Assembly (NCBI GenBank): GCA_017561665.1
Contig: JAFZBQ010000026.1
Span: forward strand, 1 to 40,547
Reading direction: 5' to 3'
DNA: 40,547 nucleotides
Origin: Bacteroidales bacterium
Lineage (GTDB): Bacteria > Bacteroidota > Bacteroidia > Bacteroidales > UBA932
Under the pieces are notes generated by a model. The model saw only the letters and a program-made list of their open reading frames with translations, was not told the DNA's origin and did no database searches. The first letter of the stretch is position 1. Every line of letters starts with the position of its first letter. Below, in pieces: positions 2,715 to 29,515 of this stretch. A program made the position numbers and the translations under genes.

Positions 2715-2715
2715 C

Positions 2716-3492: not shown

Positions 3493-3514
3493 TAAAACCC
3501 TTTAATTTGGCTAA

Positions 3515-3528
3515 GCTACAAAAGTAGC
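3515..3528 (-). promoter_or_regulatory. parA -7 element inside a small inverted repeat
   Basis: On the minus strand TACTTTTG (3526-3519) matches TAnnTTTG and lies 27 nt before the parA ATG. It is embedded in GCTAC-AAAA-GTAGC, a perfect 5-bp dyad. No good -33 TTTG was found at the usual distance. The dyad could be an operator, but it is short. Confidence 0.45.
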
Positions 3529-3544
3529 AATTTGTTTTGGTTTA

Positions 3545-7647: not shown

Positions 7648-7653
7648 TACAGG

Positions 7654-7661
7654 CGAATGTA
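7654..7661 (-). promoter_or_regulatory. possible -7 element of xerC (TACATTCG)
   Basis: On the minus strand TACATTCG differs from TAnnTTTG at one position and ends 6 nt before the GTG chosen for xerC, which would give an almost leaderless message. Similar TAnnTTCG octamers precede obg (9718-9711, TATCTTCG) and hpt (33598-33591, TAAATTCG). No -33 element is clear. Confidence 0.3.
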
Positions 7662-7668
7662 ATAAAAA

Positions 7669-7699
7669 TTTGGCGTTCAGAAAAACTTGACTATCTTTG
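7669..7699 (+). promoter_or_regulatory. rpsU promoter (TTTG-N19-TATCTTTG)
   Basis: TTTG at 7669-7672 and TATCTTTG at 7692-7699 are separated by 19 nt, an exact Bacteroidota promoter match. The predicted start near 7705 gives a leader of about 25 nt, consisting almost only of the ribosome binding site and its A-rich flank. Confidence 0.8.
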
Positions 7700-7711
7700 C
7701 AGTCCCTAAAA

Positions 7712-7721
7712 AAAGGAGGTG
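7712..7721 (+). promoter_or_regulatory. full-length Shine-Dalgarno sequence of rpsU
   Basis: AAAGGAGGTG is a 10-base perfect complement to the usual 16S rRNA 3' end and ends 8 nt before the rpsU ATG; the GGAGG core (7715-7719) is 10 nt from the ATG. It fixes the start at 7730 rather than the in-frame upstream ATG at 7697. Most genes in the window have only A-rich leaders. Confidence 0.85.
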
Positions 7722-7729
7722 TAGCAAAT

Positions 7730-7921
7730 ATGATTATCGTACAGATTAAAGAAGGTGAAAACATCGAGAAAGCTCTGAAGAAGTTCAAACGCAAATTCGA
7801 GAAGACCGGTATCGTACGCGAGCTCCGCGGCCGCCGCGAGTTCAGGAAGCCGTCTGTCATCCGTCGCGAGCAGAAGAATAAGGCTATCTACGTTCAGCAT
7901 TTGCGCCTCGAAGAGGAGTAA
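7730..7921 (+). CDS. rpsU: 30S ribosomal protein bS21
   Basis: 63 aa, highly basic: starts MIIVQIKEGENIEKALKKFK and continues with KRKFEKTGIVRELRGRREF, typical bS21. It sits on the 30S platform near the 16S 3' end. In Bacteroidota bS21 with bS6 and bS18 helps hide the anti-Shine-Dalgarno sequence, which explains why most genes lack such sites (known from Flavobacterium johnsoniae). Here the rpsU message carries a complete Shine-Dalgarno sequence, consistent with autoregulation: ribosomes lacking bS21 would translate it best. The gene has its own promoter and an intrinsic terminator, so it is probably monocistronic. Confidence 0.96.
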   Translation: MIIVQIKEGENIEKALKKFKRKFEKTGIVRELRGRREFRKPSVIRREQKNKAIYVQHLRLEEE

Positions 7922-11208: not shown

Positions 11209-12270
11209 TTACGGGGTCAGCAGGGGCCTGTCAGCAACCTCGGTATAGCCCGAGAGGGCGTCGGCCATAAGCAGCATGTTGGCTGCGATCTGATTTACCC
11301 GGCCGTCGCGGCCACTCTCCTTGAGGGAATACCAGGTGGCCGAGGAATCCTCTATATGATCTATGAAGCGGATGGTGGGGAACCGCGCCAGCAGGTTGTT
11401 GCGGAAGACATCGGTATAGCGCTCGCAAAGCGTCTCCACCTCGTTTTCCAGCGCCTGCCCCGCCTCCTTACTCCGCATATCGGCATACACGCTGGTGAAA
11501 TCGCGGTATACGTCGGCCTGGTTTATGGTGACCTCCTCGCCATTGTCGTTCAGCAGCCAGCAGTGGTTGACGTCGTCGGGGTCCTTTTCAATTGCCAGGT
11601 CGTTCAGTTTGGTGAACTTGACGCCGAAGAATGTCAGGGCATCGCCGTCGTTAGAGAATTTGATCTTGGTGAAATCGAGACCGATGGAGGCCTTGACATA
11701 GTATTTGCCAATGTACAGCACCTTCTTCTCTCCAGGATGGGTGAGATTGTCCACGAACTTTGACAGTTTGTCGCTAAGGGCCTTCTTGTCGGCGATTTTA
11801 TACTGAGGATCCTCCATAAAACGCGACAGCGGCTCCTCCTTTACCAGATAGCCCGTCTTGTCGTAGGTCATAGTCTCCAGCTTGAAACTGAGGCTTACGT
11901 TGGCCGGGGCGTTGGCCGTCTGCGACCAGGTGTCCAGCCGGCTCTCCAGCTCGTGATTACGGCTTTCCAGGGATACCACTCTATCGCGCAGATCCTGCTC
12001 CGCCTTCTCCTTCTCTGCCAGGGCACGTGCCTTCTTGCCGTATTCGTTCTGAATCAGATTGTTGATTGGCTGGATGGCGAACAGCATCAGCAGTATGGTG
12101 ATGGCGTTGGACATCACTATGGCGATAGGCGACGCGATGCGGGGGAAGAACAAAAACGCCGCTATGTTGAGGGCAACCAGCACGGCGCAGATTGTCGTAA
12201 CCACGTAACTGGTGGTAACTTTACCCTTGTCCAGGGAGCTGCGCACGGCTTTTTTGATGAATAATCCCAT
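11209..12270 (-). CDS. membrane-anchored coiled-coil protein of unknown function
   Basis: 353 aa, not recognised. Near the N-terminus two hydrophobic helices (about residues 21-43, VVTTICAVLVALNIAAFLFF, and 47-65, IAIVMSNAITILLMLFAI) form a hairpin. A charged coiled-coil follows (about 77-115, KKARALAEKEKAEQDLRDR and onward), then a mixed soluble domain of about 230 residues with aromatic strands (KVLYIGKYYVKASIGLDF, ALTFFGVKFTKL). Both termini may face the cytoplasm. The ATG at 12270 is chosen because an in-frame TTG at 12303 would precede the -7 element at 12298-12291. It lies between two bidirectional terminators, so it is probably a single-gene unit. Confidence 0.65.
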   Translation of the reverse strand: MGLFIKKAVRSSLDKGKVTTSYVVTTICAVLVALNIAAFLFFPRIASPIAIVMSNAITILLMLFAIQPINNLIQNEYGKKARALAEKEKAEQDLRDRVVSLESRNHELESRLDTWSQTANAPANVSLSFKLETMTYDKTGYLVKEEPLSRFMEDPQYKIADKKALSDKLSKFVDNLTHPGEKKVLYIGKYYVKASIGLDFTKIKFSNDGDALTFFGVKFTKLNDLAIEKDPDDVNHCWLLNDNGEEVTINQADVYRDFTSVYADMRSKEAGQALENEVETLCERYTDVFRNNLLARFPTIRFIDHIEDSSATWYSLKESGRDGRVNQIAANMLLMADALSGYTEVADRPLLTP

Positions 12271-12290
12271 AACTTGTGCATTGATATTTG

Positions 12291-12298
12291 CAAAGTTA
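12291..12298 (-). promoter_or_regulatory. -7 element for the coiled-coil protein gene (TAACTTTG)
   Basis: On the minus strand TAACTTTG matches TAnnTTTG exactly and ends 20 nt before the ATG at 12270. A matching -33 TTTG was not found. Confidence 0.5.
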
Positions 12299-12313
12299 CC
12301 CAATTAATGCGAA

Positions 12314-12371: not shown

Positions 12372-14513
12372 TTACTCAGTAGGCACCACAAAGGGCTGAA
12401 TATGGAACACATTCCTGTAAGAACTATGCTGATAATTGAAGTCAAACCTGCTTCCTGACGGCGTATATGAACCGGTGAAGTGTGCAGTTTCACCCTTATC
12501 GGACACAGTATCAAGGTCAAATATCGGTTTACCGCCTGCAAAGGTTATGGACCCACCAACGATATGGAATACCGTACCGGAATAATTATTCTTCACGTGA
12601 GCACGTGAGACAGGACCGTTCTTTCCATCTACAAAAGCAGGGAGGAGTTGAAGAGCATCTTTATCATAAACCTCGGCGTAGCTATAGATACCGTCAGGAA
12701 TACTCTCCGTACAGTATCTGGGCGTTTCACCAAGCTCATCACGATATTTCGTTGATATCGTTCCTGAAGTAGCAGTAAGGGCTTTTGCTCCGAGGTTCAA
12801 AGTGAAATAGACTTCATATGCGCCGGTATTGATAGTCTGGCAACCACCACAGACAATATGGCCTCCGTCGTGGTAAATATCACCATAATACTGTCCGGCT
12901 GTTGTGGAGTTCATTCCGCCGTTCTCAAATACGGCACTACCGTCGGGTATGACTCTAACACCGATATCTCCCAACTCGCCGATATAAACCCTGTTGAAGG
13001 TATTTTTGAAAGGAATATCTACTGAAGATTCACCTTCGGTACGGGTGATAACGACATCGATTATCAGTGTATAGCAACCTTCCTCCTCTTCTTTTACAAT
13101 CTCAAATGAAGGAGCGGAATCGGTCTTGATTGCATAGGAAATACCTTGTTCGTAAACAGGCGTACCCGGAGAAGAGACAGTGAATGTGCCGGGATGCGCA
13201 TCTGTTTTACCATTTAAATAATCAAGTTCTGGATTATCCACAGGCACTTCATAAGTAAATTTTCCTGTAGGCACTCCGGTATAGCCGGGCTCGGAGAATA
13301 CATTGAAGTACATATAGGAGATCCAGACATCATTACCCGGAAGCGCCTTGTTGAACTGGAAGCAGAAAACAGACTCCTCCGCCTTGGTTGTGAAGTAAGT
13401 GTAGTACTGACCCCTGTAATCGGCCTGGTAAGGACGAGCCCCTAATGAGTCATCGGTTGCGACAAGGTCGCCTTTATAACTGTAAAGGTGGGTGACACCA
13501 AAGATGTCGGTCAATTCTGCCACGATAGAATACTTACCGGCATTTTCCGCCACAGTAACTTTACCGTCTACCACCTCCATATCCTTTCCGTTAGCAGTAA
13601 CTGTGGTGTAATACTTTTCGTGCAGTCCAGTGGACTGTAAAGAGAACGTACCGGGAACATACTGCGAAGATTCGTCCAGTGTATATTCACCTACGGGGAG
13701 CTTGGTAACATCTTCTATTGCAGGGTCAACATTGAGGGCAAGGGTAACAAGGCCTTCGGGTGTTTCGAACTGGACACCGAACTGAGCCATTTCCCTGGTA
13801 GGTGCACCGCCTTTTTCACCCATATCCTGCTTGTTGCCAAGGAAGACTGCCGAACCGTTTGAAGCGGAGGTGTATTGGGTTCCCTGTACCACCTTGTAAG
13901 TCTGGAGGCCATTGCCGGCAAATACGGTAAACACACCCACGCGAGCGTCAAGATCTGCATTCTCTGCGGCGTGGAGCACGATTTTTCCGTCCTCGGGAGC
14001 CGCCTTGGTCCTGGTGATGGTGAGCCAGTCCCCATCCACTATGGCAACCTCAGGAGTCAGGTTGGAGTTGAAGTCCACTTCAATGTCCTGCTCGGTAAAG
14101 TCGATACCAAGGGCTACGGTGGTGTTGAACACCTCTACCGGAGACTGTACCACTGTGAACACGGTGTTCTTGGTGGTGCCGTTGTGGGTTGTGCTCAAGG
14201 TCACACGGCCTGTACGGGAATCGAAAGCTTCGTTTTTGGCCACGGTCATATTCACAGTGCTGGATCCGGCGTTGCCGGAAGCCTTGTCAAAAGCAATCCA
14301 GTCAGCATCGCTGGCAATTGTCCAGGCATCTTCTGTGGTGAAGCTCATAGGCTGAACTGCGCCGGCATTTGAAACCTGGATAGAAGTTGCGTTGAGCGTG
14401 AGCAGATCCACGATCTTCTCAACCTCTACCGGAACCTCTACCGGAACCTCTACGGTCTTGGTGCAGGCAGCCAATGCTACGACTGCTGCAATAAGAAGTA
14501 ATACTTTTTTCAT
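12372..14513 (-). CDS. BACON-domain lipoprotein
   Basis: 713 aa. A lipoprotein signal peptide with lipobox LAAC (Cys17) is followed by a VPVE-repeat linker (about residues 21-33) and two BACON-like Ig domains (about 37-125, with DAWTIASDADWIAFDKASG and VFTVVQSP; and about 130-215, ending QTYKVVQGT). The remaining 500 residues are beta-rich and contain related segments such as GQYYTYFTTKAEESVF and TGKFTYEVPVD. BACON domains are thought to bind glycans or mucin, or to act as spacers; no catalytic motif was seen. The gene starts 38 nt after the metalloprotease-like gene and ends at a strong terminator, so it is probably the last gene of the SusCD operon. Likely surface exposed. Confidence 0.8.
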   Translation of the reverse strand: MKKVLLLIAAVVALAACTKTVEVPVEVPVEVEKIVDLLTLNATSIQVSNAGAVQPMSFTTEDAWTIASDADWIAFDKASGNAGSSTVNMTVAKNEAFDSRTGRVTLSTTHNGTTKNTVFTVVQSPVEVFNTTVALGIDFTEQDIEVDFNSNLTPEVAIVDGDWLTITRTKAAPEDGKIVLHAAENADLDARVGVFTVFAGNGLQTYKVVQGTQYTSASNGSAVFLGNKQDMGEKGGAPTREMAQFGVQFETPEGLVTLALNVDPAIEDVTKLPVGEYTLDESSQYVPGTFSLQSTGLHEKYYTTVTANGKDMEVVDGKVTVAENAGKYSIVAELTDIFGVTHLYSYKGDLVATDDSLGARPYQADYRGQYYTYFTTKAEESVFCFQFNKALPGNDVWISYMYFNVFSEPGYTGVPTGKFTYEVPVDNPELDYLNGKTDAHPGTFTVSSPGTPVYEQGISYAIKTDSAPSFEIVKEEEEGCYTLIIDVVITRTEGESSVDIPFKNTFNRVYIGELGDIGVRVIPDGSAVFENGGMNSTTAGQYYGDIYHDGGHIVCGGCQTINTGAYEVYFTLNLGAKALTATSGTISTKYRDELGETPRYCTESIPDGIYSYAEVYDKDALQLLPAFVDGKNGPVSRAHVKNNYSGTVFHIVGGSITFAGGKPIFDLDTVSDKGETAHFTGSYTPSGSRFDFNYQHSSYRNVFHIQPFVVPTE
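14421..14455 (-). repeat. 12-bp tandem repeat coding for the VPVE linker
   Basis: The unit CTCTACCGGAAC (plus-strand reading) is repeated almost three times and encodes Val-Pro-Val-Glu units just after the lipobox. Because the unit is 12 bp, copy changes alter linker length without a frameshift. Confidence 0.7.
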
Positions 14514-14551: not shown

Positions 14552-17071
14552 TCATTTTGTGTCAAGTGCAGTATCTGCAATGCGCAGCAGGAAATCAATC
14601 TTGCCGCGGGTGGCGGCGTCGGCGCGGGCACGAGAGCTGCGAAGCACGTCGCGCACCTTTTCCAGATGCCGCTTGCAGAGAATATCCATATCTTCCAGGT
14701 AGGTTGTAGGCACGCCTGGAAGCGATGTATATATATCGCTGTCGTACGGGTTGTCCGCCAGACCGCTCTGGGCCGCCTCGCGGTTGTAATTGGCCTTGAG
14801 CACATCGGAAGAATTGATAAGCGTCTGCATAATGTAGACCCCTATTCCGTGGTCTTCCATAGGCTCCAGGCGTCCGTTTCGTACATTCTTGAGCAATTCG
14901 TTCTCAACGTCGGTGAGGTATTCGTCCGGGCTGTATCCGCTGCCCGCCTCCTTATAAGCGAAGGCCACATTGGCAAGGCGGTGCCTGGTTCCGGAGAGAT
15001 TGCTCATATTGTTATAATTCATATCGATTGCCGATCTGTAAGGGCCGGCAAGGTGCAACAGGTCGCGGTCTGCCTCCATCCAGGAGAGGTTGCGCCAACC
15101 GTCGAATATAGTCTTGATATATTCTTTCTGTGTCTTTTTGTCAACTGCGGTGAATTTTGGCTGCCCGCTTCCGACGGGATTGGTGGTTACGCCGCCCAGC
15201 CTCGCAGAGAGCAGCTGCGAGGCGTCGTTGAAGCGGAGCCACAGCCACTCGTAAAAGAGGTAGCGGTCGGAACTCTCTGCCAAACGGGGGTCGGTGAGCC
15301 AGTCGGCCGCGTTAGCCGCCACATATTTGAGAGTGGAAACACGGGCCTCGTATTCCGCCATCGGGTCGTTGCCCAGATCCCCTTCGCGGGCCCGGATATC
15401 CCGCGCCGACACCTTGGCGCCCTGCTCAGGCAGATATAGATACTCGGCATCGCCCTCGTGGGAATCGACCAGCGCCTTGAGCGCCTGTCGGACATCAACT
15501 CCCTCGGGGAATATCCTGTAAAGCCATTCTATGGCAAATTTGTCGTAAGTTCCAATCTGATTGGAGATTGTAGGCACCCCGCTGCGGCGGTCGCCCGGCC
15601 GGGCCAGGGTGTTGAACATCGCCCCGCGGTCCATCACGGAGGCGGTTATTCCGTGTTCTGCGGTAAAGGCCGCGTCCCGTAGCTGCTCAGGACTGTAGGC
15701 CGAACTGCCGGCAAGGTTGTTCGACAGCCCCAGCACCTTGCCGAAGCTGTGCATTATTCCGGCAGTAAGTATCTCGCACAGTGCGCTTTCAGTAGGAAAC
15801 AAAGTGCGGAAGCGCGGGTCGGCCTCGCTTATATAGAAGGCATACTGCCGCCATATCGATGTAAGGTAGCCCTGCGGCACGGTGATGGTGGCGCCCAGGA
15901 TACCGCCGGTGAGGCCGCTTCCGATTGCGCTGCTGCTCAAATAATCCACATCGCAGCCGGTGGGTACCACCTTGCAGATGAAGGGATCGTCGGCGCAGAA
16001 ATTCTTGCTTGCAGGATACGGCACCGCCCGCACCACATCGCCCAGTCCAGCAGCACGGAAACCGGCGTTCCAGGCCTCCACACCCTTTTTGATGGCGGCA
16101 CGGCGGGTAACCGGGAAAAGGGTGTCGATATATACGGTGATATGGTCGCCTTCCCTGAGATTCCAGCGCACCGCATCACGTTCCTGCTTGACTCCCTTCT
16201 CGGAAGAGAAAGAGAGATATGTCTGGCTGCGGACGCCGACCCTGGAATCTATGTCACGGACAGCTATCTCACGGTCCGGAACCAGTGAGAGAAGCGATAC
16301 GAATGTGCCGGAAATGCGCGCTTTGCTGCCGTTCCCGGATACTTTATTGTTGCTGTAGGTGCCATCGTCGCCCTCTACAGTAAGTTCGCGGGAAACGCCC
16401 AGATGGCTGCTGCCGTAGCGTACGGGAGACGACTTCATAGAGAGTTCGTTCTTTATGCTGCCGTTCATTATTCCCTTGCTATCGCCGTAGAGCAGCGCCT
16501 TGATGTCCACCACATCCTTGTTTGACGGGTCAAACAGTTTGGTGGCCTTTATCACCAGGGCGGTGGAATCGGCGTTGCGCATCATAATCGGGAAGGTATA
16601 CCCGATTGCCGGGGCGATTCCGGCGCGGATGCCTGCCTGCTCCAGCGAATCTGCCGACTCCGGCAGACGCACTGGCGTGGAGAGTATCACCAGGGAGTCG
16701 GTGCGTGAGAGTTCGAACGTCTTGTTTGGACTCACCCTCTGCCCTACCTCAACCCACGGGTCGGAACTGTCCTTGAGAACAGTGGTCAGAATCACTCTGC
16801 GGCCCATAAGTGAATCGGGAATCTCCAGCCATACCTCCTTGCCGTCGGTATAGAGCATAATGTAGCCCGTCTCCTTCTTGAGCCCTTTCTTCTTGATGAA
16901 CTTCTCGTACGGGGTGGGCTTTTTGGCGGTGTCGGGGGCCGGTGATGCGGCGGCGCTTCGATGCGGCCGCCGGCCGTAAGGTCTCTTGAAGGACTGTGCT
17001 GACAGCACCCCGGGCAGCGCCAGCGCTACCGAGAAGATTATCATTAAGGCAATTATCGCTTTCCGTCTCAT
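14552..17071 (-). CDS. DUF5117/Met-zincin family protein with degenerate zinc site (probable pseudoprotease)
   Basis: 839 aa, signal peptide about residues 1-25, then the same domain order as the upstream neighbour: DUF5118/DUF5117-like N-terminal part (about 50-310, with DGKEVWLEIPDSLMGR) and a zincin-like part (about 310-600). Where the neighbour has HEVGHTLGLMH, this protein has HSFGKVLGLSN (residues 441-451): the catalytic Glu is Ser, the second His is Lys and the third is Asn. The Met-turn region SVMD (478-481) and the segment SPEQLRDAAFT remain. Loss of zinc hydrolysis is inferred; the frame is intact over 839 codons, so the gene is kept. A role in binding protein or peptides, or regulating the active paralog 7 nt upstream, is possible. 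Confidence 0.8.
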   Translation of the reverse strand: MRRKAIIALMIIFSVALALPGVLSAQSFKRPYGRRPHRSAAASPAPDTAKKPTPYEKFIKKKGLKKETGYIMLYTDGKEVWLEIPDSLMGRRVILTTVLKDSSDPWVEVGQRVSPNKTFELSRTDSLVILSTPVRLPESADSLEQAGIRAGIAPAIGYTFPIMMRNADSTALVIKATKLFDPSNKDVVDIKALLYGDSKGIMNGSIKNELSMKSSPVRYGSSHLGVSRELTVEGDDGTYSNNKVSGNGSKARISGTFVSLLSLVPDREIAVRDIDSRVGVRSQTYLSFSSEKGVKQERDAVRWNLREGDHITVYIDTLFPVTRRAAIKKGVEAWNAGFRAAGLGDVVRAVPYPASKNFCADDPFICKVVPTGCDVDYLSSSAIGSGLTGGILGATITVPQGYLTSIWRQYAFYISEADPRFRTLFPTESALCEILTAGIMHSFGKVLGLSNNLAGSSAYSPEQLRDAAFTAEHGITASVMDRGAMFNTLARPGDRRSGVPTISNQIGTYDKFAIEWLYRIFPEGVDVRQALKALVDSHEGDAEYLYLPEQGAKVSARDIRAREGDLGNDPMAEYEARVSTLKYVAANAADWLTDPRLAESSDRYLFYEWLWLRFNDASQLLSARLGGVTTNPVGSGQPKFTAVDKKTQKEYIKTIFDGWRNLSWMEADRDLLHLAGPYRSAIDMNYNNMSNLSGTRHRLANVAFAYKEAGSGYSPDEYLTDVENELLKNVRNGRLEPMEDHGIGVYIMQTLINSSDVLKANYNREAAQSGLADNPYDSDIYTSLPGVPTTYLEDMDILCKRHLEKVRDVLRSSRARADAATRGKIDFLLRIADTALDTK

Positions 17072-17078
17072 AGCTTAT

Positions 17079-19691
17079 CTATTTGAGCGAATAGGCGATT
17101 GTGCCCATCAAAAGTTCGTAATGAGCCTTGTCGTTGGCATTGGCAGAGGATTTGGCCGCTTTCATTGCGTCATAGACCCTTGACAGCTGGCCGTAAATCA
17201 CGCCCTGGCTTATATCTCCCACAGCCATTACATAACGCGGCACCCACTCGAAACCGCTTACGGGGTCGTAGATGAAAGAGCCGGGCAGGTCAGGATCTTC
17301 TCCCGATGCAAAGGCGCAGGGGCAGTCGGCATGGCAATGGAGACCTGCAGCACCCTGCTTCTGGAGAGAAGCCGTCGGCGTCTTGAACATTCCGCTGGCC
17401 ATCAGAAAATCTACATACCGCTTCTGCACCATCCGCTGCTTCTCGGTAAGGGCTCGCTTCTGGACTGTGGGTTTGAACACGAAGTCAAACAGGTCGTCAA
17501 ATGCGTCCTGAGACGAGTATTCATAAGAAGATACGCCGTCGGAGCGGGTGGCCGAGAAGGGTGTGGAGAATATGAACTGCAGCAGCACCTCCTCCAGGTT
17601 GCGGGCCGGGCTGCCAATCATGGGCAGCCGGCCAATTACGGCGGGGTCATCAAGCCAGGCTGTATCGTTGAACATCTCCAGCAGATACTTCATGGCAGCA
17701 ACCTGTTTTTTTCGGGGGATATTCACGTACGGCTTGTTACCGTCACCGGCAATGACCTCGTCACGGTACAGCCCGCCGATGTTGTTGCGCACGTGCAGGC
17801 AGTAGCGGAGATACTGGTTGAGAATCGCGGAATAATAATCCATACGGATGGAATAGTCCGGGTCGGATTCGTCAGAAATCCAGTCCAGATATTTTGGGAG
17901 GATGTATTTCAGGTTGGCAACGCCGTATTTGGTGGAGGCGATTACATCGTCGCCCAGATCCTCAGTCTGGTTGCGGGGATCGAAGAAGATGCCGGCATCT
18001 CCGTATATCTGCTGCTTACCGTAGCGGTAAACGGGGTTGACCTTGAGGGAATCTGTAATCCACTGCGTGGTGACCTTTGTCTCTTCCTCAAAGCTGGTAG
18101 CATCAAACACCGGGGTATAGCCCCAGCGGATAGCCCACAGGTCGTTGGCACCGAACAGCGGCGGAGTCAGCTTCACACCCTTCTCCTTGTCGCCCGGCTG
18201 CGCCACGTAGTTGAAGCGGGCGTAGTCCATAATCGAGGTGGTGGTACCGGTCTTTTTGGTAAAATCGGCATCGCGCAGCTTCTCCGTGGGGATTACATAA
18301 GAAGCGCTCATATTGTGCATCAGGCCCAGGGTATGCCCCACCTCGTGACGGATGACATACTCCAGCGCGTCGCCCAACAGTTCGCGGGGAATGTCGGCGG
18401 TGCGTACTGCATCGTCGGCCTGGGAAGTCTGGGCAAACATCCAGCTCGATATCAGCTTGATAACATCGTGATATACATATACCGATGCGTTGATGATCTC
18501 GCCGCTGCGGGGATCTACCCACGAAGGGCCCATTGCGTTTTTGATTCCTATTGGAGCATAGCGGATGCAGCTGTAGCGGATGTTGTCAGGGTCAAACGAG
18601 GGGTCGTCGTCCGGGAACGGTAGCGCACGCACGGCATTTTTAAAGCCGATGTTCTCGAACGGGATGTTCCATGCTTCCACTGCCCTGAATATATAGGGCT
18701 TCCACCACTCGGGGAAGTCGCTGTCGATATAGAAAGTGATTGGCCTGACTGGCTCAACCTTCTCGCCGCGGCGGTATGCCAAGGTGTCGGAGGGTTCCAG
18801 GCGCCAGCGGTTCACAAAGTACTCCGGGCGGGTCCCTTCGCTGCCGCTGCCCATCCGCTGCCGACCGGTAAAGAAGAAGTTGATTCGCGGGTCGGCGGTG
18901 CGGGGGTGGTATATCTCCTGCGGCAGAAGCAGCACGGAGCGGGTCACCAGGGCGGTGAAGGGCTTGTCCTTTACCACCTGCTTACCACTCTGGCGGTCGG
19001 CCAGCGAATATGTATATGACATACAGCTGGTCACCGACAGGTTGTCTTCGAAAGATTTGACGCCCTCTATATAAGAGAGGTCCTTCTTGTAGTTCTGCGT
19101 GCGGTTGTAGGCCGATTTGTTGTTGGAAAGATCCAGCAGAGGGCGCATCTGCTCGTCGTCTCCCAGGAACCAGTCGGTGACATCTATCACGGAGAAGCCG
19201 TCGGGAGACTTTGCCTCTACCTTGAACTTACGCGTCACGGCGCCGATATTGCTCTTATCCAGCGCAGAAATGATATCTTTCTCTGAACTTGTTATGTCAA
19301 AATTAACATCCCTCACCAATATAGAGCTGTCGGCCATTGCAAAGGTAAACGGGATGAGGTTGTCCTTGCTGCCCACCACTCCGTTGGTGTTGTCACTGGT
19401 GGCCTTCACGGTTGATCCCATCACGAATATGCGTCCCAACAGGCTGTCAGGAACTTCGAAATAGACCTTACCTTTGGTAAAATGGACGTTCAGCAGGCCC
19501 TTCGAAAGGCTGTCGCCCTTGGCGAAGAGTTTGTCGTATTTAGGGTCGTTCTTCTTGGCGGTGGTGTCTGCCTTGGCCTCTGCCGCGGCCTTCTTCTTTC
19601 CGAAGGGCCATATAGTGGCCGACGCCGGCGAAGGGGCACACACGAGCATAATCAGCGCAAAAGCAAGCAGGAATATGTTGGATCTCTTCAT
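17079..19691 (-). CDS. zinc-dependent metalloprotease, DUF5117/Met-zincin family
   Basis: 870 aa exported protease. A signal peptide (about 1-26, ending PASA) precedes a Lys/Ala-rich linker, the DUF5118/DUF5117-type N-terminal part (about 50-300; GKVYFEVPDSLLGRIFVMGS) and a zincin domain with RHEVGHTLGLMHN (HExxHxxGxxH at 449-459) and Met-turn SIMDY (486-490). These are the full metzincin signature residues. The C-terminal part (about 600-870) is helical with a Cys/His stretch (GLHCHADCPCA). It probably degrades proteins at the periplasm or cell surface and feeds peptides to the SusCD pair encoded upstream. It starts 6 nt after the PKD-like lipoprotein gene and ends 7 nt before its degenerate paralog. 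Confidence 0.88.
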   Translation of the reverse strand: MKRSNIFLLAFALIMLVCAPSPASATIWPFGKKKAAAEAKADTTAKKNDPKYDKLFAKGDSLSKGLLNVHFTKGKVYFEVPDSLLGRIFVMGSTVKATSDNTNGVVGSKDNLIPFTFAMADSSILVRDVNFDITSSEKDIISALDKSNIGAVTRKFKVEAKSPDGFSVIDVTDWFLGDDEQMRPLLDLSNNKSAYNRTQNYKKDLSYIEGVKSFEDNLSVTSCMSYTYSLADRQSGKQVVKDKPFTALVTRSVLLLPQEIYHPRTADPRINFFFTGRQRMGSGSEGTRPEYFVNRWRLEPSDTLAYRRGEKVEPVRPITFYIDSDFPEWWKPYIFRAVEAWNIPFENIGFKNAVRALPFPDDDPSFDPDNIRYSCIRYAPIGIKNAMGPSWVDPRSGEIINASVYVYHDVIKLISSWMFAQTSQADDAVRTADIPRELLGDALEYVIRHEVGHTLGLMHNMSASYVIPTEKLRDADFTKKTGTTTSIMDYARFNYVAQPGDKEKGVKLTPPLFGANDLWAIRWGYTPVFDATSFEEETKVTTQWITDSLKVNPVYRYGKQQIYGDAGIFFDPRNQTEDLGDDVIASTKYGVANLKYILPKYLDWISDESDPDYSIRMDYYSAILNQYLRYCLHVRNNIGGLYRDEVIAGDGNKPYVNIPRKKQVAAMKYLLEMFNDTAWLDDPAVIGRLPMIGSPARNLEEVLLQFIFSTPFSATRSDGVSSYEYSSQDAFDDLFDFVFKPTVQKRALTEKQRMVQKRYVDFLMASGMFKTPTASLQKQGAAGLHCHADCPCAFASGEDPDLPGSFIYDPVSGFEWVPRYVMAVGDISQGVIYGQLSRVYDAMKAAKSSANANDKAHYELLMGTIAYSLK

Positions 19692-19697
19692 CTGTTT

Positions 19698-21245
19698 CTA
19701 TCTGAATGTCGGGCAGAGGGCGGTGATTTCGCCGAATCCGCCGTAAGTTCCGTTATTCTTTGATGTGAAAAGACCGGTGGATACGTTGAACGGACGCAGG
19801 TAAATCTTGCCTTCGCCGGTCTTCTCGTTATAAGTGGTAATTATCAACTGCAGGCGGTGGGTATCCAGCGGGAATGCATAATCTCCAGGGAATATCTGGT
19901 GGGTACCGTACCAAGCCTGCACATATTGCCTGATGGAGGTTATCTTCTCGTCGGGCGAATCGGGAGCCCAGTTCACCTTGCGGTTGCTTACGCGGCCGGC
20001 GGCCAGTATGGTGGCATACACAGCGTCGGGTGTGGTGTAGTACATCAGGTCACAATTGTCGCAGAAGCAAACGCTCACAATCTTGTCCATTTCGGCACCG
20101 TCTATCTGGAAGATCTCTGCAGAGGCGGTTTGGTTTTGTGTGTTGAGCATGCAGGCCCTGTAAACCCCGGAGGGGTCTTTGAGCAGGAAGCCCAGAATCT
20201 GGTTGCGGGAACAACCGCTCCCAAGGCATACACACCCTTTGGACTGGAAGCCCAGCTCGCAATTGAGCACGGAGAAGGCCGCCTGTGTGAGGTTCCACCC
20301 CAAGATACTGTAAAAATTGCCGTCCGCCTCGTCAAACACTGCCAGGTTGCCGCCCTGCTGCAAAGGGCCATATGCTACATTATTCGGCCGGAATATGTCA
20401 TCCGGGTTGACTCCGAAACTCAGTTTGGAATACTGGCGGTCTATATGGCACATCATGCCGTAGGCCCTGCCGCCGATAATCGCCGCATTGGAATATGCTG
20501 CAAAGTTAAAGATGGCGGTGGTGGCAAAATTATCCTGATAGCTGGAATAGAACAACGGCGCATCCGATTCGGTCAGCACAAAAGTAAGCTGGTCCAGGGC
20601 GTGGATGTGGGAATCGGTTCCTACAAGGAAACGGGTTTCGCCCCAGACTCCTGCACCGCCGGCATCCGTATCCGACATATCACAAACTACATTGACCCTC
20701 TCTTCAAGAGTATAGCCGTTGGCCAGCGAGAACAGGTTCCTGGTATATACAGGCTCGTCGGATGTAAATCCGTAAGTGACATATTTATTGGCCAGAAGGT
20801 CGAATTCCGATGTGGCGCCACCGTCGCGGGTATGTGCCACCAGCAACCCCTCGCCAAGAGAACTGGCCACATACAGCTTGCACGGGGCTATCTTTTTAAG
20901 ACCGGTGGTAAGATCGGTCACGTCAAAGCGGATGATATACGGTTTGGTGGCCGGCCTGTTGGAAACCTTGTAATCCAGCACGGTGCCCTCGCACAACTCT
21001 ATGCGGGTGTCATTATCGTCGGCTTTAAGGTCTATGGACCACTCGCACTTCAGATCGGACATAGTGCGACCCTCCTGTGAAACCCTCGCTTCTATATGGA
21101 TATCCTGCCCGTAAAGCACATACATAGTGGAGTCGACCCCCTCTATCACGATATCGGGTATCACGTGGTCTGCCTCGGTACTGAGGTCGGCGAAGCACGA
21201 GGCCACCAGCAGCGGGAACAGCAATATGATAATTATTCTTTTCAT
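19698..21245 (-). CDS. PKD-like family surface lipoprotein
   Basis: 515 aa. Lipobox VASC (Cys17) after a short hydrophobic signal, then a PKD/Ig-like region (about 30-130; IVIEGVDSTMYVLYGQDIH, then FDVTDLTTG) and a long beta-rich part that looks like a propeller (repeated aromatic-Gly strands). Lipoproteins of this class follow DUF4843 genes in SusC-SusD-DUF4843-PKD-metalloprotease operons of Bacteroidota; the ligand is unknown. Two cysteine clusters stand out: GCVCLGSGC (CxCx4C) and CFCDNC (CxCx2C), which could bind metal or form disulfides. It starts 4 nt after the DUF4843 gene, so coupling is likely. Confidence 0.75.
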   Translation of the reverse strand: MKRIIIILLFPLLVASCFADLSTEADHVIPDIVIEGVDSTMYVLYGQDIHIEARVSQEGRTMSDLKCEWSIDLKADDNDTRIELCEGTVLDYKVSNRPATKPYIIRFDVTDLTTGLKKIAPCKLYVASSLGEGLLVAHTRDGGATSEFDLLANKYVTYGFTSDEPVYTRNLFSLANGYTLEERVNVVCDMSDTDAGGAGVWGETRFLVGTDSHIHALDQLTFVLTESDAPLFYSSYQDNFATTAIFNFAAYSNAAIIGGRAYGMMCHIDRQYSKLSFGVNPDDIFRPNNVAYGPLQQGGNLAVFDEADGNFYSILGWNLTQAAFSVLNCELGFQSKGCVCLGSGCSRNQILGFLLKDPSGVYRACMLNTQNQTASAEIFQIDGAEMDKIVSVCFCDNCDLMYYTTPDAVYATILAAGRVSNRKVNWAPDSPDEKITSIRQYVQAWYGTHQIFPGDYAFPLDTHRLQLIITTYNEKTGEGKIYLRPFNVSTGLFTSKNNGTYGGFGEITALCPTFR

Positions 21246-21249
21246 TGTG

Positions 21250-22047
21250 TTAAAGCACGTTCAATGTTTCGTAGATGGTGGGGATAATATCAGGTTTTTC
21301 CCCTTCGCCGTGGGCAGTGGTATAAGTACGATACTGTTCATAATCGTCGCTGTGGCGCAGCGGATTGGAAGGATTCTCAGCATCGGTCTTCTTGACCCAT
21401 TCGCGGAACTCGCGGGTAGCGGAGTACCACCAGGTAGGCAATTTGTAAGTCAGGGTAGGATCCTCCTTGGCAGGAGCCTGCTGGACCACATAGGTTTCTA
21501 TCTCCTCGCCGAAATAAGAAACCATCAGGCGGTGCAACTCCTTGCTGTAGCCGTGGCAGAAATAAAGATACCACCCGCGCCAAACGTAGGGCTGGGGACG
21601 GGTATACTCTTCCGACCAAGTGATGTCCGCTATGGAGTTCTTGGGAGGACCCGCCCTGAAATATTCGTTGGGGACTATCTTGAGCTTCATATCCTGGCGC
21701 TCTACACCCTGTGGAAGGTGATTCACCCTCAATTTGACAAAACCTCTCACCGCGCCTGCCTTGATATCAGAGGAGATAATGGTGAAGTCCCGCCCGAGGA
21801 CGGCGGTGGAGTCAATGACTTCTACAGCAAACGTCCGGTCGTAGTCGGCACAATAACCCACAAGATCCACCGCAACGTCGATGTCCCTGAAGTCTTCTGT
21901 CATACCTTTGAAAGAGTAAGTATTGGTGCGGCCATGGAAAACAACCGCACTGTCCTCCGGCCTGTAGGTCTTTATTTCGTCCTTCACGCACGAAACCAGG
22001 CACCAGGCCGTAAAGGCCACAATTGCAATATGTAGGTATTTCTTCAT
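21250..22047 (-). CDS. DUF4843 lipoprotein
   Basis: 265 aa. The ATG at 22047 is chosen because it starts a clean lipoprotein signal (MKKYLHIAIVAFTAWCLVSC, Cys20); the frame extends 18 codons further into the susD 3' end without any signal. The DUF4843 pattern is visible: DSAVVFHGRTNTYSFKG, AVDLVGYCADYDRTFAVEV, and a strand ending VKLRVNH. The family has an Ig-like fold and is nearly always encoded next to SusC/SusD pairs; it is likely a surface accessory protein that helps ligand capture. The ORF sits 16 nt after the susD stop and 4 nt before the PKD-like lipoprotein. Confidence 0.85.
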   Translation of the reverse strand: MKKYLHIAIVAFTAWCLVSCVKDEIKTYRPEDSAVVFHGRTNTYSFKGMTEDFRDIDVAVDLVGYCADYDRTFAVEVIDSTAVLGRDFTIISSDIKAGAVRGFVKLRVNHLPQGVERQDMKLKIVPNEYFRAGPPKNSIADITWSEEYTRPQPYVWRGWYLYFCHGYSKELHRLMVSYFGEEIETYVVQQAPAKEDPTLTYKLPTWWYSATREFREWVKKTDAENPSNPLRHSDDYEQYRTYTTAHGEGEKPDIIPTIYETLNVL

Positions 22048-22063
22048 ATAAGACCCTCCCGTA

Positions 22064-23635
22064 TTATTGTTCCTGAATCCTGCCGTATGTGGTCTCTGCA
22101 ACAGGATAGGGATACATAATACTAATAGCAGATGTACCTATCTTGGCACTGAAGTTTACCACATTAACATTCATTGAGAATAACGGCCTTCCATATTCTC
22201 CGTAATATCGTTTCACCGCATATAAGAGCTGCCCTTCGGCCAAAAGTTCAGTCAGGTACTCACGGAGTATGACAGACGCTATTTGCTGGTCACGGCCAAA
22301 ATATGACTGCTCCGGCACAATAAATTGCATCACCTCTGCAATGGAGGTCGAAACACCCCTGTGATGCCGCACCTGGTCTATCAAAGCCAGGGCGCCGTCG
22401 TAGTCAAAGGCGTGCAGTGCCGCCTCGGCTTGAATCAGATACATTTCAGGCAGTTTTATCATGGGCATCCGCCCGCGGAACGCCTCAAAATAGCCGTTTG
22501 AACTGTAGAACTTGTACATCTGATATCCGCTGGTGGAGTATTTCAGAAGGCCGGCCGGTCCGCGTACATCTTCGTGCAGGAAGTCAGCATCAATACCGTA
22601 GTGTGAGAAATCCCGGAACAACTCCCCTACAGCAGTTTCACTTACCAGCACCGCATCCGAAACCATATTTGGAAAGTGATAGACGGCAAGATTGCTGTAC
22701 AGGTTTGTTATTTCCAGCGAGAACAGGTGCTCACAAGAGAAGGTCCAGTCACGGTAGTCATATTGAACCTCCTGCTGGAAAGCACTCACGTCTATCCATT
22801 TCACCAGGCCTTTGTCAAGAGCGTTGGTGGCCACGTCCGCGGCCATCTGTCCGGCACTTACATAGTCCCTGCGCCAGAGATGCACCCGCGCCAGCAGCGC
22901 CTCCACGGCATAGTAGTTGAGCCTTTTGGCGCGGTCGTTCCAGAAACCGTCGGCATTGATAGTCGACTCAAAGTCGTCGCGGACCGTCCCGCGCACCGGG
23001 TCATCCTTGAGGCATTCCAATGCGCCGTTGATGTCTTTCAGCAGCAGTTCTACGGTCTGGGCATAAGTCCTCTGTGGCGTCGGTTCGCTGCTATACTCTG
23101 TTACGTACGGCACGGTTACCTTGTCGGCATTTTCGCCGACCCAACTGTCCAGGCCGAACATTCGCATAAGGTCAAAATGGACATAAGCACGCGCCGCCAG
23201 CAGTTCGCCTTTTATCAGGTTGTACTCCAGTTCGTCCGGCACGATGTCCCTGCGACGCTCCAGTTCGAACAGGGTCTTGTTGATATTTGCGATTATGGAA
23301 TATCCCCCGGACCACATATCCTCTATGTAAGGCTCTACGGAAACGGCGCTGAAAAGATTCTGTTGAAGACCTTTGATGAACGATTTGTTGTGCGTTGCAT
23401 ACGGGCAGCAAACGATATCATTTACCAGGAAAGTATAGTTTGCGCCGTAGGTGGCCGGCTGTCCCATCTTCAGGTAAACGCCAATCAATGCTTCGTGAAA
23501 GCCGTTGCGGGTAGAGAACAATTTGTCGTCGGCAATCTGTGACGACGATGTCGCCTCCAGCCACTTTTCGCACGAAGCTGCCATCGGCAACAGCATCAAG
23601 GTAAAAAGTATGAATCTTATTATTGACTTTTTCAT
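22064..23635 (-). CDS. susD: SusD/RagB-family surface lipoprotein
   Basis: 523 aa. Signal peptide with lipobox MAASC (Cys22), then CEKWLEATSSSQIADDKLF, the typical SusD start, and TPR-like helices (for example GELLAARAYVHFDLMRMFG). Near the C-terminus the PEMYLIQAEAALHAF segment is a family hallmark. SusD caps the SusC barrel from outside and binds the oligomer to be imported. The lack of glycan-degrading enzymes and the presence of proteases in the operon suggest peptides rather than glycans (RagB-like); this is inference. It starts 12 nt after susC. Confidence 0.93.
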   Translation of the reverse strand: MKKSIIRFILFTLMLLPMAASCEKWLEATSSSQIADDKLFSTRNGFHEALIGVYLKMGQPATYGANYTFLVNDIVCCPYATHNKSFIKGLQQNLFSAVSVEPYIEDMWSGGYSIIANINKTLFELERRRDIVPDELEYNLIKGELLAARAYVHFDLMRMFGLDSWVGENADKVTVPYVTEYSSEPTPQRTYAQTVELLLKDINGALECLKDDPVRGTVRDDFESTINADGFWNDRAKRLNYYAVEALLARVHLWRRDYVSAGQMAADVATNALDKGLVKWIDVSAFQQEVQYDYRDWTFSCEHLFSLEITNLYSNLAVYHFPNMVSDAVLVSETAVGELFRDFSHYGIDADFLHEDVRGPAGLLKYSTSGYQMYKFYSSNGYFEAFRGRMPMIKLPEMYLIQAEAALHAFDYDGALALIDQVRHHRGVSTSIAEVMQFIVPEQSYFGRDQQIASVILREYLTELLAEGQLLYAVKRYYGEYGRPLFSMNVNVVNFSAKIGTSAISIMYPYPVAETTYGRIQEQ

Positions 23636-23647: not shown

Positions 23648-26600
23648 TTAGAAAGTGGCCGTGAGGGAGAATGAGAACGAACGTGCATAAGGATACGAAG
23701 TTCCGCGCTCGATCCGGATTGAAGAGAATGTATAGAGGTCGTTGGTATAAAGGGTTGCGCGCAGGCGGTCCATCCTGAGTTTGCTGAGAACCGACTTCGG
23801 GAACTCGTAATAAACCGACACAGTAGAAATGTTCAGGACGTTGTTTTTCTGGATGAATCGGGATGTCGCGCGGGTCATGTAATCTTGATAGCCGATCTCC
23901 TCGTTGTTACTGTGGGAATCAAGCCCCCTGAACGGGGCGTTCTGACCGGCCTTGAACCACCGTCCCTCAAAAATCCTCCTGTCGACATTATAGCTCAGAT
24001 CGACGTTTTCTACCTTGTTGAGCAGGGTGGTATTATACCGTTTGCCCCCTCCATAATATGTCATGACTATGTTGACGCCTATGGAGGCCATCTCGCCGTT
24101 TATGCCAAAGTTGCCGTTGTACAAGGGGTCGGAAGAGCCAAAGTTTTTTAGATCTTTAGAATCCCATGTGGTGGTCATATTGCCGTCGCGGTCAATAAAG
24201 ACCTCATAACCTAGTCTGGAATCTATGCCCAGCGACTCCACCGCCCATATAGAGTGCAGCGGCATACCGTTGTAGTACTGCACCACGGGGAGGGGCGAAT
24301 GGAGTGCCTCTGCCGCAGCCGCCTGCTGCTTGTTGTAGGCCTCCAGCGCCTCCGATATCTGCAGGATGCGGTTGTCGTTGAAAGCGACCTTGCCGAATAC
24401 GCTCAGGTAAGAAGAACCTGTCTGGAACAATACGTAACTAAGGCTCGCCTCAATACCGCGGTTACGGACCTTGCCCATATTGTCCACCACGGTAGAAAAA
24501 CCGGTACTGGGCACTATCGACCGGTTGAACACCAGGTTGCGGGTATCGGCGATGTAAGCGTCCAGCACGGCGTTGATCCGATTCGTGCGGAAGTCGATGC
24601 CGACATTGTAGTCCATCTTCTCTTCCCACTGCAGGTCGGGATTCTCCATATTCTTGAGCACCGCCCCGGTAAAGCCGTTGTAATAGTTGCTGTTGTAGTA
24701 GGAATAAACCGGCAGGGAGATGTTGTTGGCATAGTTCTGGTTACCCGAAGAGCCCACGGAGGCACGCAGTTTCAGGGTTTTGAGCCAGTCCTTCGCATCT
24801 TCCATAAAGGCCTCGTTGTGCAGGTTCCACGCGACGCCGGCACTCCAGAATACACCCCAGCGGCGGTTGCTTCCGAACACGCTGGAGGCGCTGGTCTTGA
24901 TGGTGGCATCCACCATATAGCGGTTGTCGTATGAATAGCCGGCCGTGAGCAGGGCGCCAAGGTTGCGGTTGATGCCGTCGCCGCCGGTGGGGGAACTGCC
25001 TGTCTCATACGCCCTTGCAAGGGCGTAGTTCTTCATATAGCTGTTTGGGAAGCCGTACGCCGTGTTGGTCACTTCGTCGTAATGGGTCTCTGAAATGTTG
25101 TATTGAGCGGTAGCAAACACATAGTGCCTGTCGGCAAAGGTACGGTTGAACTGAGCGCTGGCATCGGCAGAGTAGTTGATGTAATTGCCGGTGGTGAGGG
25201 TATAGGAGCCCCTGTTGATATATTCCTCTGCAGAGAGCGCCATACCGTTTTTATTTACAAAATCGGTGTGCTCCGCAGGCAGGAATTTGTCGTACTGGGT
25301 CTTTTTGGTGTCAATGCCCATCCTGGCTACAAGTTTGAGCGATTGGGCAAGGTGGTATTCCACGTAGAAATTGTCTATAAAATCGAGGTACCGCGATGTA
25401 TCGGAGGTGCCTATGAACGCATTCCACATAGGGTTCGTAACCTGCGGTTCGCTATACTCGCCCACAAAGCCCTTGTAAAGGAACTTCTTTACGTTGCCGT
25501 TCTCGTCGTACGGAGTGAAATAGGGATTGCAGGCCGCATATTCACTGAAACTGCCCCAGGGCGATTCGGTACCTTTCATGGAACTGATGCTCATAATGTT
25601 GCGGAACACCCAGTTACCGGCACGGTAAGATATATTGGCATCGCCGGAAATTATGTCGCGTTTGGAGCCTTTCATCGCGCCCTGTACATCGTTGTAAGAG
25701 AAGGTCAGGAATGTCTTGAGATCCTTGTTACCCATCTCCACACCCAGGGAATGCTTGTGGCCGAAGCCCATTCTCACCGGCTTGCTGAGCCAGTAGGTGC
25801 TCTCCCCCTCCATAGCCCGTTTGAGACGCTGGTAATACATATTCTGCTGCACAACAGTACTATAGCTGTCGTGATTCAAACCATCGTAGTACTTTAACCC
25901 TTCCCTGTCCTCTACCATCAGTTTTTCATAAGCGTTGCAGAGGTTGTAACTGGTCAGGTCGGGGGCCTCGACGGTGACGCTGCCGGTGTAGGTAACCAGC
26001 GTGCGGTCGCTGCCCAGCGCCTTGGTCTCTATAACAATAACGCCGTTGGCGCCCTTGGAACCATAAATCGCCTTGGCGGAGGCGTCCTTGAGAATGGTGA
26101 TGCTCTGCACGCGGTTCATATCCATGTCGGTGATCTTCTCTATGTTGGTTTCGAAGCCGTCCAGGATGAACAGCGGCATATTGGCGGCCGTCACAAAGTT
26201 GCTCTTGAGGCTGGTGGTCTCCATACCGAGGGCCGAGGCTCCGCGCAGCTGCATCTGGGCCATCACATTGGGGTTGGAGCCCGCCTCCAGGTTTTCCAGT
26301 ATCAGCAGCGAGGGGTCGATACGCTTAAGGCTCTCCACGATGTTGGCGTTGCTCACGCGGGTCAGCTCTTCTGCCGTGATGGTCTGCACCGCTCCGGTAA
26401 AAGATTCCTTCTTGCGGGTGAAGATACCCGTCACCACAGATTCGTCAATGGATTCGTGGTCCTCCTTGAGCACCACCCGTTTAACTTTTGAGACCGGGAG
26501 TTCGAGCGTCTGGTAACCGATGGCCTGGAAAACCAGAACGGCATCCTTGGCTGAGACTTTTATTTCAAAAGATCCGTCTTCGTTGGTTTGGGTACCGGCT

Positions 26601-26776
26601 CCGGTACGGCTGCGGGGATAGACGAACACTCCGGGTATCGGAACGCCCGCCTCGTCCACCACCTTTCCGGTGACTGTGGTTAGGACTTTTAAGTCCCCCG
26701 CCGTTTGCGCTTTAAGATTTAAAGCGGACAGACAGAGAATTGATATAAATAGTAATATAATGGACTTATCTCTCAT
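23648..26776 (-). CDS. susC: SusC/RagA-family TonB-dependent transporter
   Basis: 1042 aa outer-membrane transporter. Signal peptide to about residue 24; carboxypeptidase-D regulatory-like domain about 35-110 (VTGKVVDEAGVPIPGVFVYP, then FQAIGYQTLELPV); plug domain about 112-250 with the SusC signature (AEELTRVSNANIVESLKRID, MPLFILDGF, VQSITILKDASAKAIYGSKG); then a 22-strand barrel ending FSFSLTATF with terminal Phe. No N-terminal STN signalling domain is present, and no sigma/anti-sigma pair or hybrid sensor is nearby, so regulation is by another route. It is the first gene of a seven-gene minus-strand series and diverges from the lipoprotein pair at 26867, with a 12-bp palindrome between them. 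Confidence 0.95.
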   Translation of the reverse strand: MRDKSIILLFISILCLSALNLKAQTAGDLKVLTTVTGKVVDEAGVPIPGVFVYPRSRTGAGTQTNEDGSFEIKVSAKDAVLVFQAIGYQTLELPVSKVKRVVLKEDHESIDESVVTGIFTRKKESFTGAVQTITAEELTRVSNANIVESLKRIDPSLLILENLEAGSNPNVMAQMQLRGASALGMETTSLKSNFVTAANMPLFILDGFETNIEKITDMDMNRVQSITILKDASAKAIYGSKGANGVIVIETKALGSDRTLVTYTGSVTVEAPDLTSYNLCNAYEKLMVEDREGLKYYDGLNHDSYSTVVQQNMYYQRLKRAMEGESTYWLSKPVRMGFGHKHSLGVEMGNKDLKTFLTFSYNDVQGAMKGSKRDIISGDANISYRAGNWVFRNIMSISSMKGTESPWGSFSEYAACNPYFTPYDENGNVKKFLYKGFVGEYSEPQVTNPMWNAFIGTSDTSRYLDFIDNFYVEYHLAQSLKLVARMGIDTKKTQYDKFLPAEHTDFVNKNGMALSAEEYINRGSYTLTTGNYINYSADASAQFNRTFADRHYVFATAQYNISETHYDEVTNTAYGFPNSYMKNYALARAYETGSSPTGGDGINRNLGALLTAGYSYDNRYMVDATIKTSASSVFGSNRRWGVFWSAGVAWNLHNEAFMEDAKDWLKTLKLRASVGSSGNQNYANNISLPVYSYYNSNYYNGFTGAVLKNMENPDLQWEEKMDYNVGIDFRTNRINAVLDAYIADTRNLVFNRSIVPSTGFSTVVDNMGKVRNRGIEASLSYVLFQTGSSYLSVFGKVAFNDNRILQISEALEAYNKQQAAAAEALHSPLPVVQYYNGMPLHSIWAVESLGIDSRLGYEVFIDRDGNMTTTWDSKDLKNFGSSDPLYNGNFGINGEMASIGVNIVMTYYGGGKRYNTTLLNKVENVDLSYNVDRRIFEGRWFKAGQNAPFRGLDSHSNNEEIGYQDYMTRATSRFIQKNNVLNISTVSVYYEFPKSVLSKLRMDRLRATLYTNDLYTFSSIRIERGTSYPYARSFSFSLTATF

Positions 26777-29503: not shown

Positions 29504-29515
29504 ATCATTACAGAT

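Follow-up and report, generated by a model that had tools for sequence, protein, structure and literature searches.

A metzincin-family protease and its dead paralogue in a Bacteroidales SusCD locus: candidate subunits of one half-active enzyme

Two adjacent paralogous genes in a 40,547-nucleotide (nt) stretch of a Bacteroidales bacterium (assembly GCA_017561665.1, contig JAFZBQ010000026.1; the whole stretch is called the window below) encode a metalloprotease of 870 amino acids (aa), alpha, and an 839-aa homologue with a degenerate zinc site, beta. We lean towards the view that alpha and beta are subunits of one exported protease that needs one working zinc site, presumably a heterodimer in the manner of TldD/TldE. 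Half-active pairs of this kind recur, once with the roles of the two copies exchanged, which suggests that two copies work as one enzyme. The two genes and their key sites are as follows.

17079..19691, minus strand: alpha, active-type DUF5118-DUF5117-DUF4953 metalloprotease, 870 aa (open reading frame, Pfam, tree, structure model)
18315..18347, minus strand: zinc site HEVGHTLGLMH, alpha residues 449-459 (sequence; three His present in 63/63 active partners of dead copies)
18222..18236, minus strand: Met-turn SIMDY, alpha residues 486-490 (alignment)
14552..17071, minus strand: beta, dead DUF5118-DUF5117-DUF4953 protein, 839 aa, signal peptide-like N-terminus (open reading frame, Pfam, alignment, tree, structure model)
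15719..15751, minus strand: degenerate zinc site HSFGKVLGLSN, beta residues 441-451 (sequence, alignment)
15626..15640, minus strand: Met-turn region SVMDR, beta residues 478-482 (alignment)

Copies are termed active or dead according to the zinc motif. The metzincin motif HExxHxxGxxH is present in alpha (HEVGHTLGLMH), whereas beta has HSFGKVLGLSN at the aligned place, in which the first His is retained and the Glu, the second His and the third His are replaced by Ser, Lys and Asn, respectively. SIMDY of alpha aligns with SVMDR of beta. The motifs, their positions and the persistence of a Met-turn region in beta are as described in the first-pass annotation of this sequence. Judged by its motif, beta is a metzincin homologue and not a metzincin peptidase, because HExxHxxGxxH is found in 0/68 members of its clade (described below).

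DUF5118, DUF5117 and DUF4953 'Met-zincin' all score above the Pfam cut-offs in both proteins, which share 28% identity over residues 6-682. Annotation by domain alone would therefore probably label both as metalloproteases. No NCBIfam model matches either protein at E up to 0.01. Structure prediction, which had been proposed as a check, gave models with a predicted metzincin fold in the catalytic domain of both; the model of beta is confident and its predicted fold intact. Foldseek searches with the whole models returned weak matches only (TM-scores about 0.1), with M1 aminopeptidases at the top for beta. The N-termini of both copies resemble signal peptides when judged by eye, and a simple lipobox pattern occurs in 7/63 dead and 7/63 active copies of the pairs described below. 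No further family member was found in the window genome (2.2 Mb, 89.9% complete).

The dead clade and its active partners

A FastTree phylogeny of 203 proteins, from which duplicates, pieces shorter than 580 aa and pieces without the motif were excluded, groups 68 of the 71 non-canonical copies together in a single clade, with a support of 0.998. The three outside it are in loci L112, L114 and L191. The L191 copy (891-3578) is a single gene with HEVGHCLGLML, in which only the third zinc His is changed, to Leu; the change may mark a single copy that died early, or it may stem from a sequencing error. An active copy lies directly upstream of 63/68 dead copies at a gap of -4 to 74 nt, with overlaps of 1 or 4 nt in 14/63; the spacing in the window is 7 nt. 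Among the other five, L081 and L097 are at contig ends, L116 and L132 are preceded by a family fragment at a contig end, and L154 follows an alpha with a split frame. Split frames affect the active copy in L154 and the dead copy in L179, both from uncultured genomes.

The zinc site of the dead copies has decayed in many ways. None of the four catalytic residues is left in 45/68 copies, one is left in 22 and two in 1, with the motif Gly retained in 68/68. The expectation that HSFGK-type members form a clade of their own beside HExxH members held for the dead clade as a whole and for its adjacency to active copies in all readable cases, but not for HSFGK, which is one of many decayed motifs rather than a type, because the first His is kept in 2/68 dead copies and the nearest same-genus orthologues of the window beta (70-73% identical) carry Arg there. 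HSFGK was accordingly rejected as a distinct motif, as the site varies freely among dead copies. A single-strain mutation or misread motif was also rejected, since the near orthologues are likewise dead; these lack HExxH, although two deeper members of the beta clade (L224 and L185) have it.

In an alignment of the 63 pairs, 70 positions are near-invariant in the active copies and variable in the dead ones, and 35 positions are conserved in both. Of the former, 43/70 fall within alpha residues 361-510; this stretch holds the zinc motif and Met-turn and is in any case the region of highest conservation in the active copies. Such a pattern does not support the suggestion that beta holds substrate. 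Outside the zinc motif, C375 (63/63), H408 (62/63) and H857 (63/63) of the active copies are lost in the dead clade.

The intact predicted fold of beta, together with purifying selection (below), would also be expected if a new enzymatic or metal site had arisen elsewhere in beta. In the dead copies, however, no column reaches more than 43/63 for His or Cys, and the window beta has neither residue at any of the three columns that reach 40%, so that the sequences give no conserved His/Cys hint of another complete zinc site, an alternative that had been raised at the outset. Nor do the nine positions conserved mainly in dead copies look catalytic, by residue type. A gain of this kind is improbable.

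The duplication that gave alpha and beta is old, because dead copies are about as similar to other active copies (identity 0.287) as to their own partner (0.299). On the strength of these identities, the idea that every dead copy arose recently and independently from its own partner was rejected. Among six related dead orthologues (15 comparisons), dN/dS by NG86 is 0.10-0.23, against 0.10-0.15 among five active partners (10 comparisons), at dS values of about 0.7-1.8 that are near saturation; NG86 is quoted because YN00 estimates were unusable in 23/25 comparisons. Selection on beta is therefore purifying and only moderately relaxed, so that the relaxed selection named as a counter-indication is found in a limited sense, relative to the active copies. 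That beta is merely a decaying relic of the duplication is scarcely credible. A relic would account for a beta that diverges about 1.9x faster than alpha and for the split frame of L179, but not for 68 long frames across the phylum (selected for length, so that broken copies are under-counted), the low dN/dS, the 35 positions conserved in both copies or the confident model.

The two copies also diverge in step. Alpha-alpha and beta-beta distances correlate with r 0.90, compared with a maximum of 0.17 in 1000 permutations. At 49 loci with SusD, the correlations are 0.92 for active-dead, 0.67 for active-SusD and 0.72 for dead-SusD; the partial correlations are 0.86 for active-dead given SusD, 0.02 for active-SusD given dead and 0.35 for dead-SusD given active. 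With PKD_2 or DUF4843 as the control, at 46 loci each, the partial correlation for active-dead is 0.82 and 0.81, respectively, and the other partials are 0.16-0.34. A role of beta in passing peptides to SusD, as had been suggested, is not supported, since beta tracks its active partner more closely than SusD; the pair also occurs without SusCD directly upstream (L171, L188 and L224). Support for the broader proposal of a maintained pseudoprotease tied to its partner comes from conservation across the clade and from adjacency, as well as from the purifying selection and the coupled divergence.

Exchanged roles and doubly active pairs

In locus L224 (genome G969, outside the class of the window), the motif of gene 1 is RQVGFRLGFKP and that of gene 2 is HEVGHTLGLMH. 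Gene 1 groups with the active alpha of L284 (ultrafast bootstrap, UFBoot, 99) and with the alphas of L163 and L181 (100), and gene 2 groups with the dead betas of L284, L163 and L181 (UFBoot 100). By this placement the roles in L224 appear to be swapped, with alpha dead and beta active. L284 belongs to a genome of the same genus (G1075) and has the usual order SusC-SusD-DUF4843-PKD-active-dead. The identity of L224 gene 1 is 0.49 with L284 gene 1 and 0.34 with L284 gene 2; for L224 gene 2 the values are 0.53 with L284 gene 2 and 0.41 with L284 gene 1. Among the matches listed for the family of G969 (92 genomes), an adjacent pair occurs only in G969 and G1075. A UvrB gene lies close to the L224 pair.

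A large gene conversion was rejected as the origin of the swap. In a comparison by alignment windows, L224 gene 1 is nearer to L284 gene 1 in 10/11, with 1 tie, and L224 gene 2 is nearer to L284 gene 2 in 11/11. The margin of gene 2 is narrow in three windows around the catalytic site, and in the window with the motif it is about equally near to both L284 genes (0.60 and 0.59), as expected if gene 2 simply stayed active or received a short conversion tract.

A second active copy lies in the beta clade in L185, where both copies are active and gene 2 is cut by the contig end. In an IQ-TREE analysis of 70 taxa (LG+F+R4), the alpha and beta clades have UFBoot 96 and 97. A single inactivation of beta was at first backed by the trees (68 copies in one clade, 0.998; 23/23, UFBoot 98) and was overturned when L224 and L284 were added, which placed active copies inside the beta clade. 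Because the second genes of L224 and L185 are active and lie in this clade, at least two losses of the beta site are indicated, unless activity was regained. The L224 beta takes different places in the trees: it joins L284 with a support of 0.137 in FastTree and falls outside the three dead betas in IQ-TREE (UFBoot 80).

Dead copies also occur in pairs that were duplicated separately (L112 and L114, one dead copy in each). In L112 the first gene is dead and the second active, and in L111 both are active; the first copies group together, as do the second copies (UFBoot 100 and 100; all four 98). L114 is a tandem pair whose second copy is dead, very long-branched and placed beside its own partner in the midpoint-rooted tree. 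The main locus set contains 64 active-dead adjacencies (L114 included), 8 active-active (5 loci), 1 dead-active and 0 dead-dead with both motifs readable; six more involve pieces without a motif and are outside this count. With 1 further dead-active (L224) and 2 active-dead (L284 and L285), no dead-dead pair is present among 76 readable adjacencies. Three adjacent family members, all with intact HExxHxxGxxH, occur in each of L169, L170 and L186 (Alistipes/Rikenellaceae).

These exceptional pairs bear on two further explanations. Beta may be a separate binding or regulatory protein, whether an inhibitor, a substrate adaptor or a surface receptor, and share a pathway with alpha without a stable complex. 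A shared pathway would likewise give co-inheritance and coupled rates, a scrambled cleft suits changing ligands and further lipoproteins are encoded in the same locus; the L224 swap and the separate pairs of L112 and L114 are nevertheless hard to explain if beta is specialised, and the dead-specific conserved positions are few (9). We regard this explanation as unlikely, though it deserves to be taken seriously. Beta could alternatively be a decoy or chaperone that aids export or keeps alpha from harming the cell until it is exported, much as an unlinked pro-domain would, in keeping with the adjacent and probably co-transcribed genes, the 1- or 4-nt overlaps in 14/63 gaps and the signal peptide-like N-termini (by eye) of both proteins. 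Such a role does not predict the L224 swap and is given little weight, about as little as a new site in beta.

Distribution and the transporter locus

Searches with the dead protein covered the genus (26 genomes), the family (299) and the order (393). In at least 28/299 family genomes the motif confirmed a dead copy, a lower bound since not every match was inspected for the motif. The same 299 genomes searched with the active protein gave at least 31 matches of at least 43% identity. Of the 31 listed, 28 have a verified dead neighbour, two (G024 and G195) stop at a contig end with a dead copy on another contig of the same genome, and one (L313) is a single active gene outside the alpha clade. 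The L313 gene (5800-8445) is preceded by SusC, SusD and two genes whose sizes fit DUF4843 and PKD_2, an arrangement that looks like a pre-duplication locus. A contig scan with 21 aligned dead proteins gave 131 relatives, of which 80 were retained. In a phylum sample, the dead-clade profile matched in 197/395 genomes (at most 2 candidates scored per genome), and 29 new loci with 1.5 kb flanks comprised 28 with one active-type copy and 1 pair (G969). The single active gene is thus the common state, and the pair is patchy yet phylum-wide.

The pair in the window belongs to a run of minus-strand genes in the order SusC-SusD-DUF4843-PKD_2-alpha-beta-BACON (Pfam), which confirms the SusCD setting of the first-pass annotation; with adjoining SusC and SusD genes, the run is a SusCD nutrient-uptake locus. 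The other members are listed here.

23648..26776, minus strand: SusC/RagA TonB-linked outer membrane transporter, 1042 aa (Pfam, NCBIfam)
22064..23635, minus strand: SusD-family lipoprotein, 523 aa (Pfam)
21250..22101, minus strand: DUF4843 protein (Pfam; the listed start is TTG, the true start is uncertain and the frame overlaps SusD)
19698..21245, minus strand: PKD_2-type lipoprotein, 515 aa (Pfam just under the cut-off, 35.7 vs 39.2 bits; counterparts elsewhere are above it)
12372..14513, minus strand: BACON-domain lipoprotein, 713 aa, last gene of the run (Pfam)

The order from SusC to the dead copy also holds in Pedobacter insulae (L163), Bacteroides faecis (L162), Butyricimonas synergistica (L158) and Sanguibacteroides (L164), as well as in uncultured relatives. 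Cultured commensals with the pair include B. faecis MAJ27 (L162) and B. synergistica DSM 23225 (L158, L171 and L172). Where both upstream genes were scanned with Pfam, DUF4843 and PKD_2 were found at 6/7 loci (L139, L141, L158, L162, L163 and L164), and Alistipes montrealensis (L150) instead has an endonuclease/phosphatase-like protein and a PKD_4 protein. Upstream of the 63 pairs are a SusD-family gene in 49/63, a PKD-type gene in 46/63 and a DUF4843-type gene in 46/63, with misses due to contig ends counted as absences. Downstream of the pair, a BACON gene like that of the window was seen in nearer relatives only. In L171 the pair is flanked by S9/DPPIV peptidase genes (Pfam), with a similar layout by gene sizes in L188; these neighbours hint at peptide breakdown. 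The alphas of L163 and of Flavobacteriaceae PS02338 (L181) fall inside the Bacteroidales alphas, suggesting transfer of the pair between lineages; the placement of their betas is less certain.

Elsewhere in the window, two plus-strand genes (26867-30943; 878 and 475 aa) diverge from SusC, and their proteins have no Pfam (E up to 1) or NCBIfam match. A 364-aa TTG-start reading frame (11209-12303) with only a weak, sub-threshold NCBIfam match has a counterpart near the locus in L076 and L081. A tyrosine recombinase of the phage integrase family (6700-7860) lies a few kb downstream of the locus.

A possible heterodimer and known enzyme pairs

The observations can be arranged into a putative course of events. 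A single-gene ancestor may have been a homodimer. An old tandem duplication, for which the identities argue, gave two copies that are inherited together; these would have become an obligate heterodimer, in which the second active site was dispensable or undesirable. Either copy would then be free to lose its site while the other keeps its own; the data point to loss usually in beta and once in alpha. The dead copy is predicted to keep its fold and is under purifying selection, and the two copies diverge in step, as the dN/dS values and distances indicate. In the window, alpha would do the peptide cutting, whereas the part of beta would be to complete the assembly, to keep alpha in an active shape or to limit access. 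The pair would be located in the periplasm or at the outer membrane, where it would process material imported by the SusCD-DUF4843-PKD_2 transporter. Duplication of a homodimer predicts long retention, coupled divergence and a cleft that loses its conservation while folding residues are kept. It also predicts that roles can be swapped, that intermediates with two active copies exist and that pairs with two dead copies do not. The sample agrees with every one of these predictions.

A more general proposal, for which we put the chances slightly short of even, is that the half-active metzincin of Bacteroidota is an obligate heterodimer whose catalytic subunit can be either of the two. A doubly active ancestor like L185 would have given rise to pairs with alpha active and beta dead in most sampled lineages and to the reverse in at least one, with selection keeping one working site per pair and not a particular enzyme.

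Several points weigh against a two-subunit enzyme. The complex is inferred from single-chain models and sequence, and the homodimeric ancestor is a guess. Most family members in the phylum sample are single genes, and the enzyme does not need its paralogue, because single-gene members exist. Dead copies diverge 1.9x faster (median distance ratio; above 1 in all comparisons), and only 9 positions are conserved mainly in them. Coupled divergence can also stem from a shared pathway, and part of its difference from the controls may be noise, as the two halves of the family share a single tree and a single long alignment, whereas the alignments of the control genes are shorter. L224 is the sole swapped alpha/beta case, its pair is no longer beside SusCD, and short gene conversion at the active site or reactivation may have occurred there. 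Support for alpha and beta as sister clades is uneven (FastTree 0.928 and 0.98; UFBoot 91 with 74 taxa and 41 with 70 taxa, including more non-canonical pairs). The pairs were mostly gathered by searches with dead copies, and their counts are not population frequencies.

If alpha and beta do form one enzyme, its closest parallel in way of working is TldD/TldE, which is cytoplasmic and, unlike the window pair, is not linked to SusCD. The comparison concerns the way of working only. Among the Pfam matches (E up to 1) there is no TldD/E model, and beta has no PDB sequence match. According to the available part of the TldD/TldE report, its two subunits are homologous, only TldD binds metal, no ligand is conserved in TldE, which keeps the fold, and activity needs both (PMC5810440). 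Alpha and beta follow the same pattern as a homologous pair with metal ligands lost in one member, and identity between subunits is low in both systems (18% for TldD/TldE, about 30% on average here). The TldD/TldE fold is unrelated, its motif is HExxxH, and the same part of that report does not describe a role swap of the kind seen in L224 (PMC5810440).

The mitochondrial processing peptidase alpha/beta and bacterial M16B peptidases, the latter encoded by a two-gene operon, likewise join an active and an inactive paralogue, as far as the accessible text of PMC11266112 goes. In contrast to the proteins described here, M16 enzymes form a clamshell with an HxxEH motif, and their inactive subunit retains a substrate-binding glycine-rich loop, whereas the beta cleft is scrambled (PMC11266112, in part). 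Karilysin and MMP-type metzincins share the predicted catalytic-domain fold with alpha and beta, but here that domain is preceded by DUF5118/DUF5117 and followed by a long, helical C-terminal part. With scores above the cut-offs, both proteins are full members of Pfam PF16313/PF17148/PF17162 (DUF4953 Met-zincin, DUF5117 and DUF5118), a family whose name implies a zinc peptidase, although the beta branch lacks zinc ligands.

In the open-access literature searched, no mention of DUF5117 or DUF4953 was found, nor any account of the active/dead pair among the matches listed; the available portion of PMC10434189 has nothing on the DUF5118-DUF5117-DUF4953 family. As far as these searches show, the pair belongs with the active/inactive enzyme pairs, and the new elements are the family, its transporter setting across the phylum and, most of all, the reciprocal loss. 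Active/dead enzyme pairs are already known; the series of doubly active, one-dead and role-swapped forms of one pair, in a conserved transporter locus, provides a natural and direct test bed for the reasons behind the evolution of dead subunits, one possible route being from homodimers for which a single site is enough.
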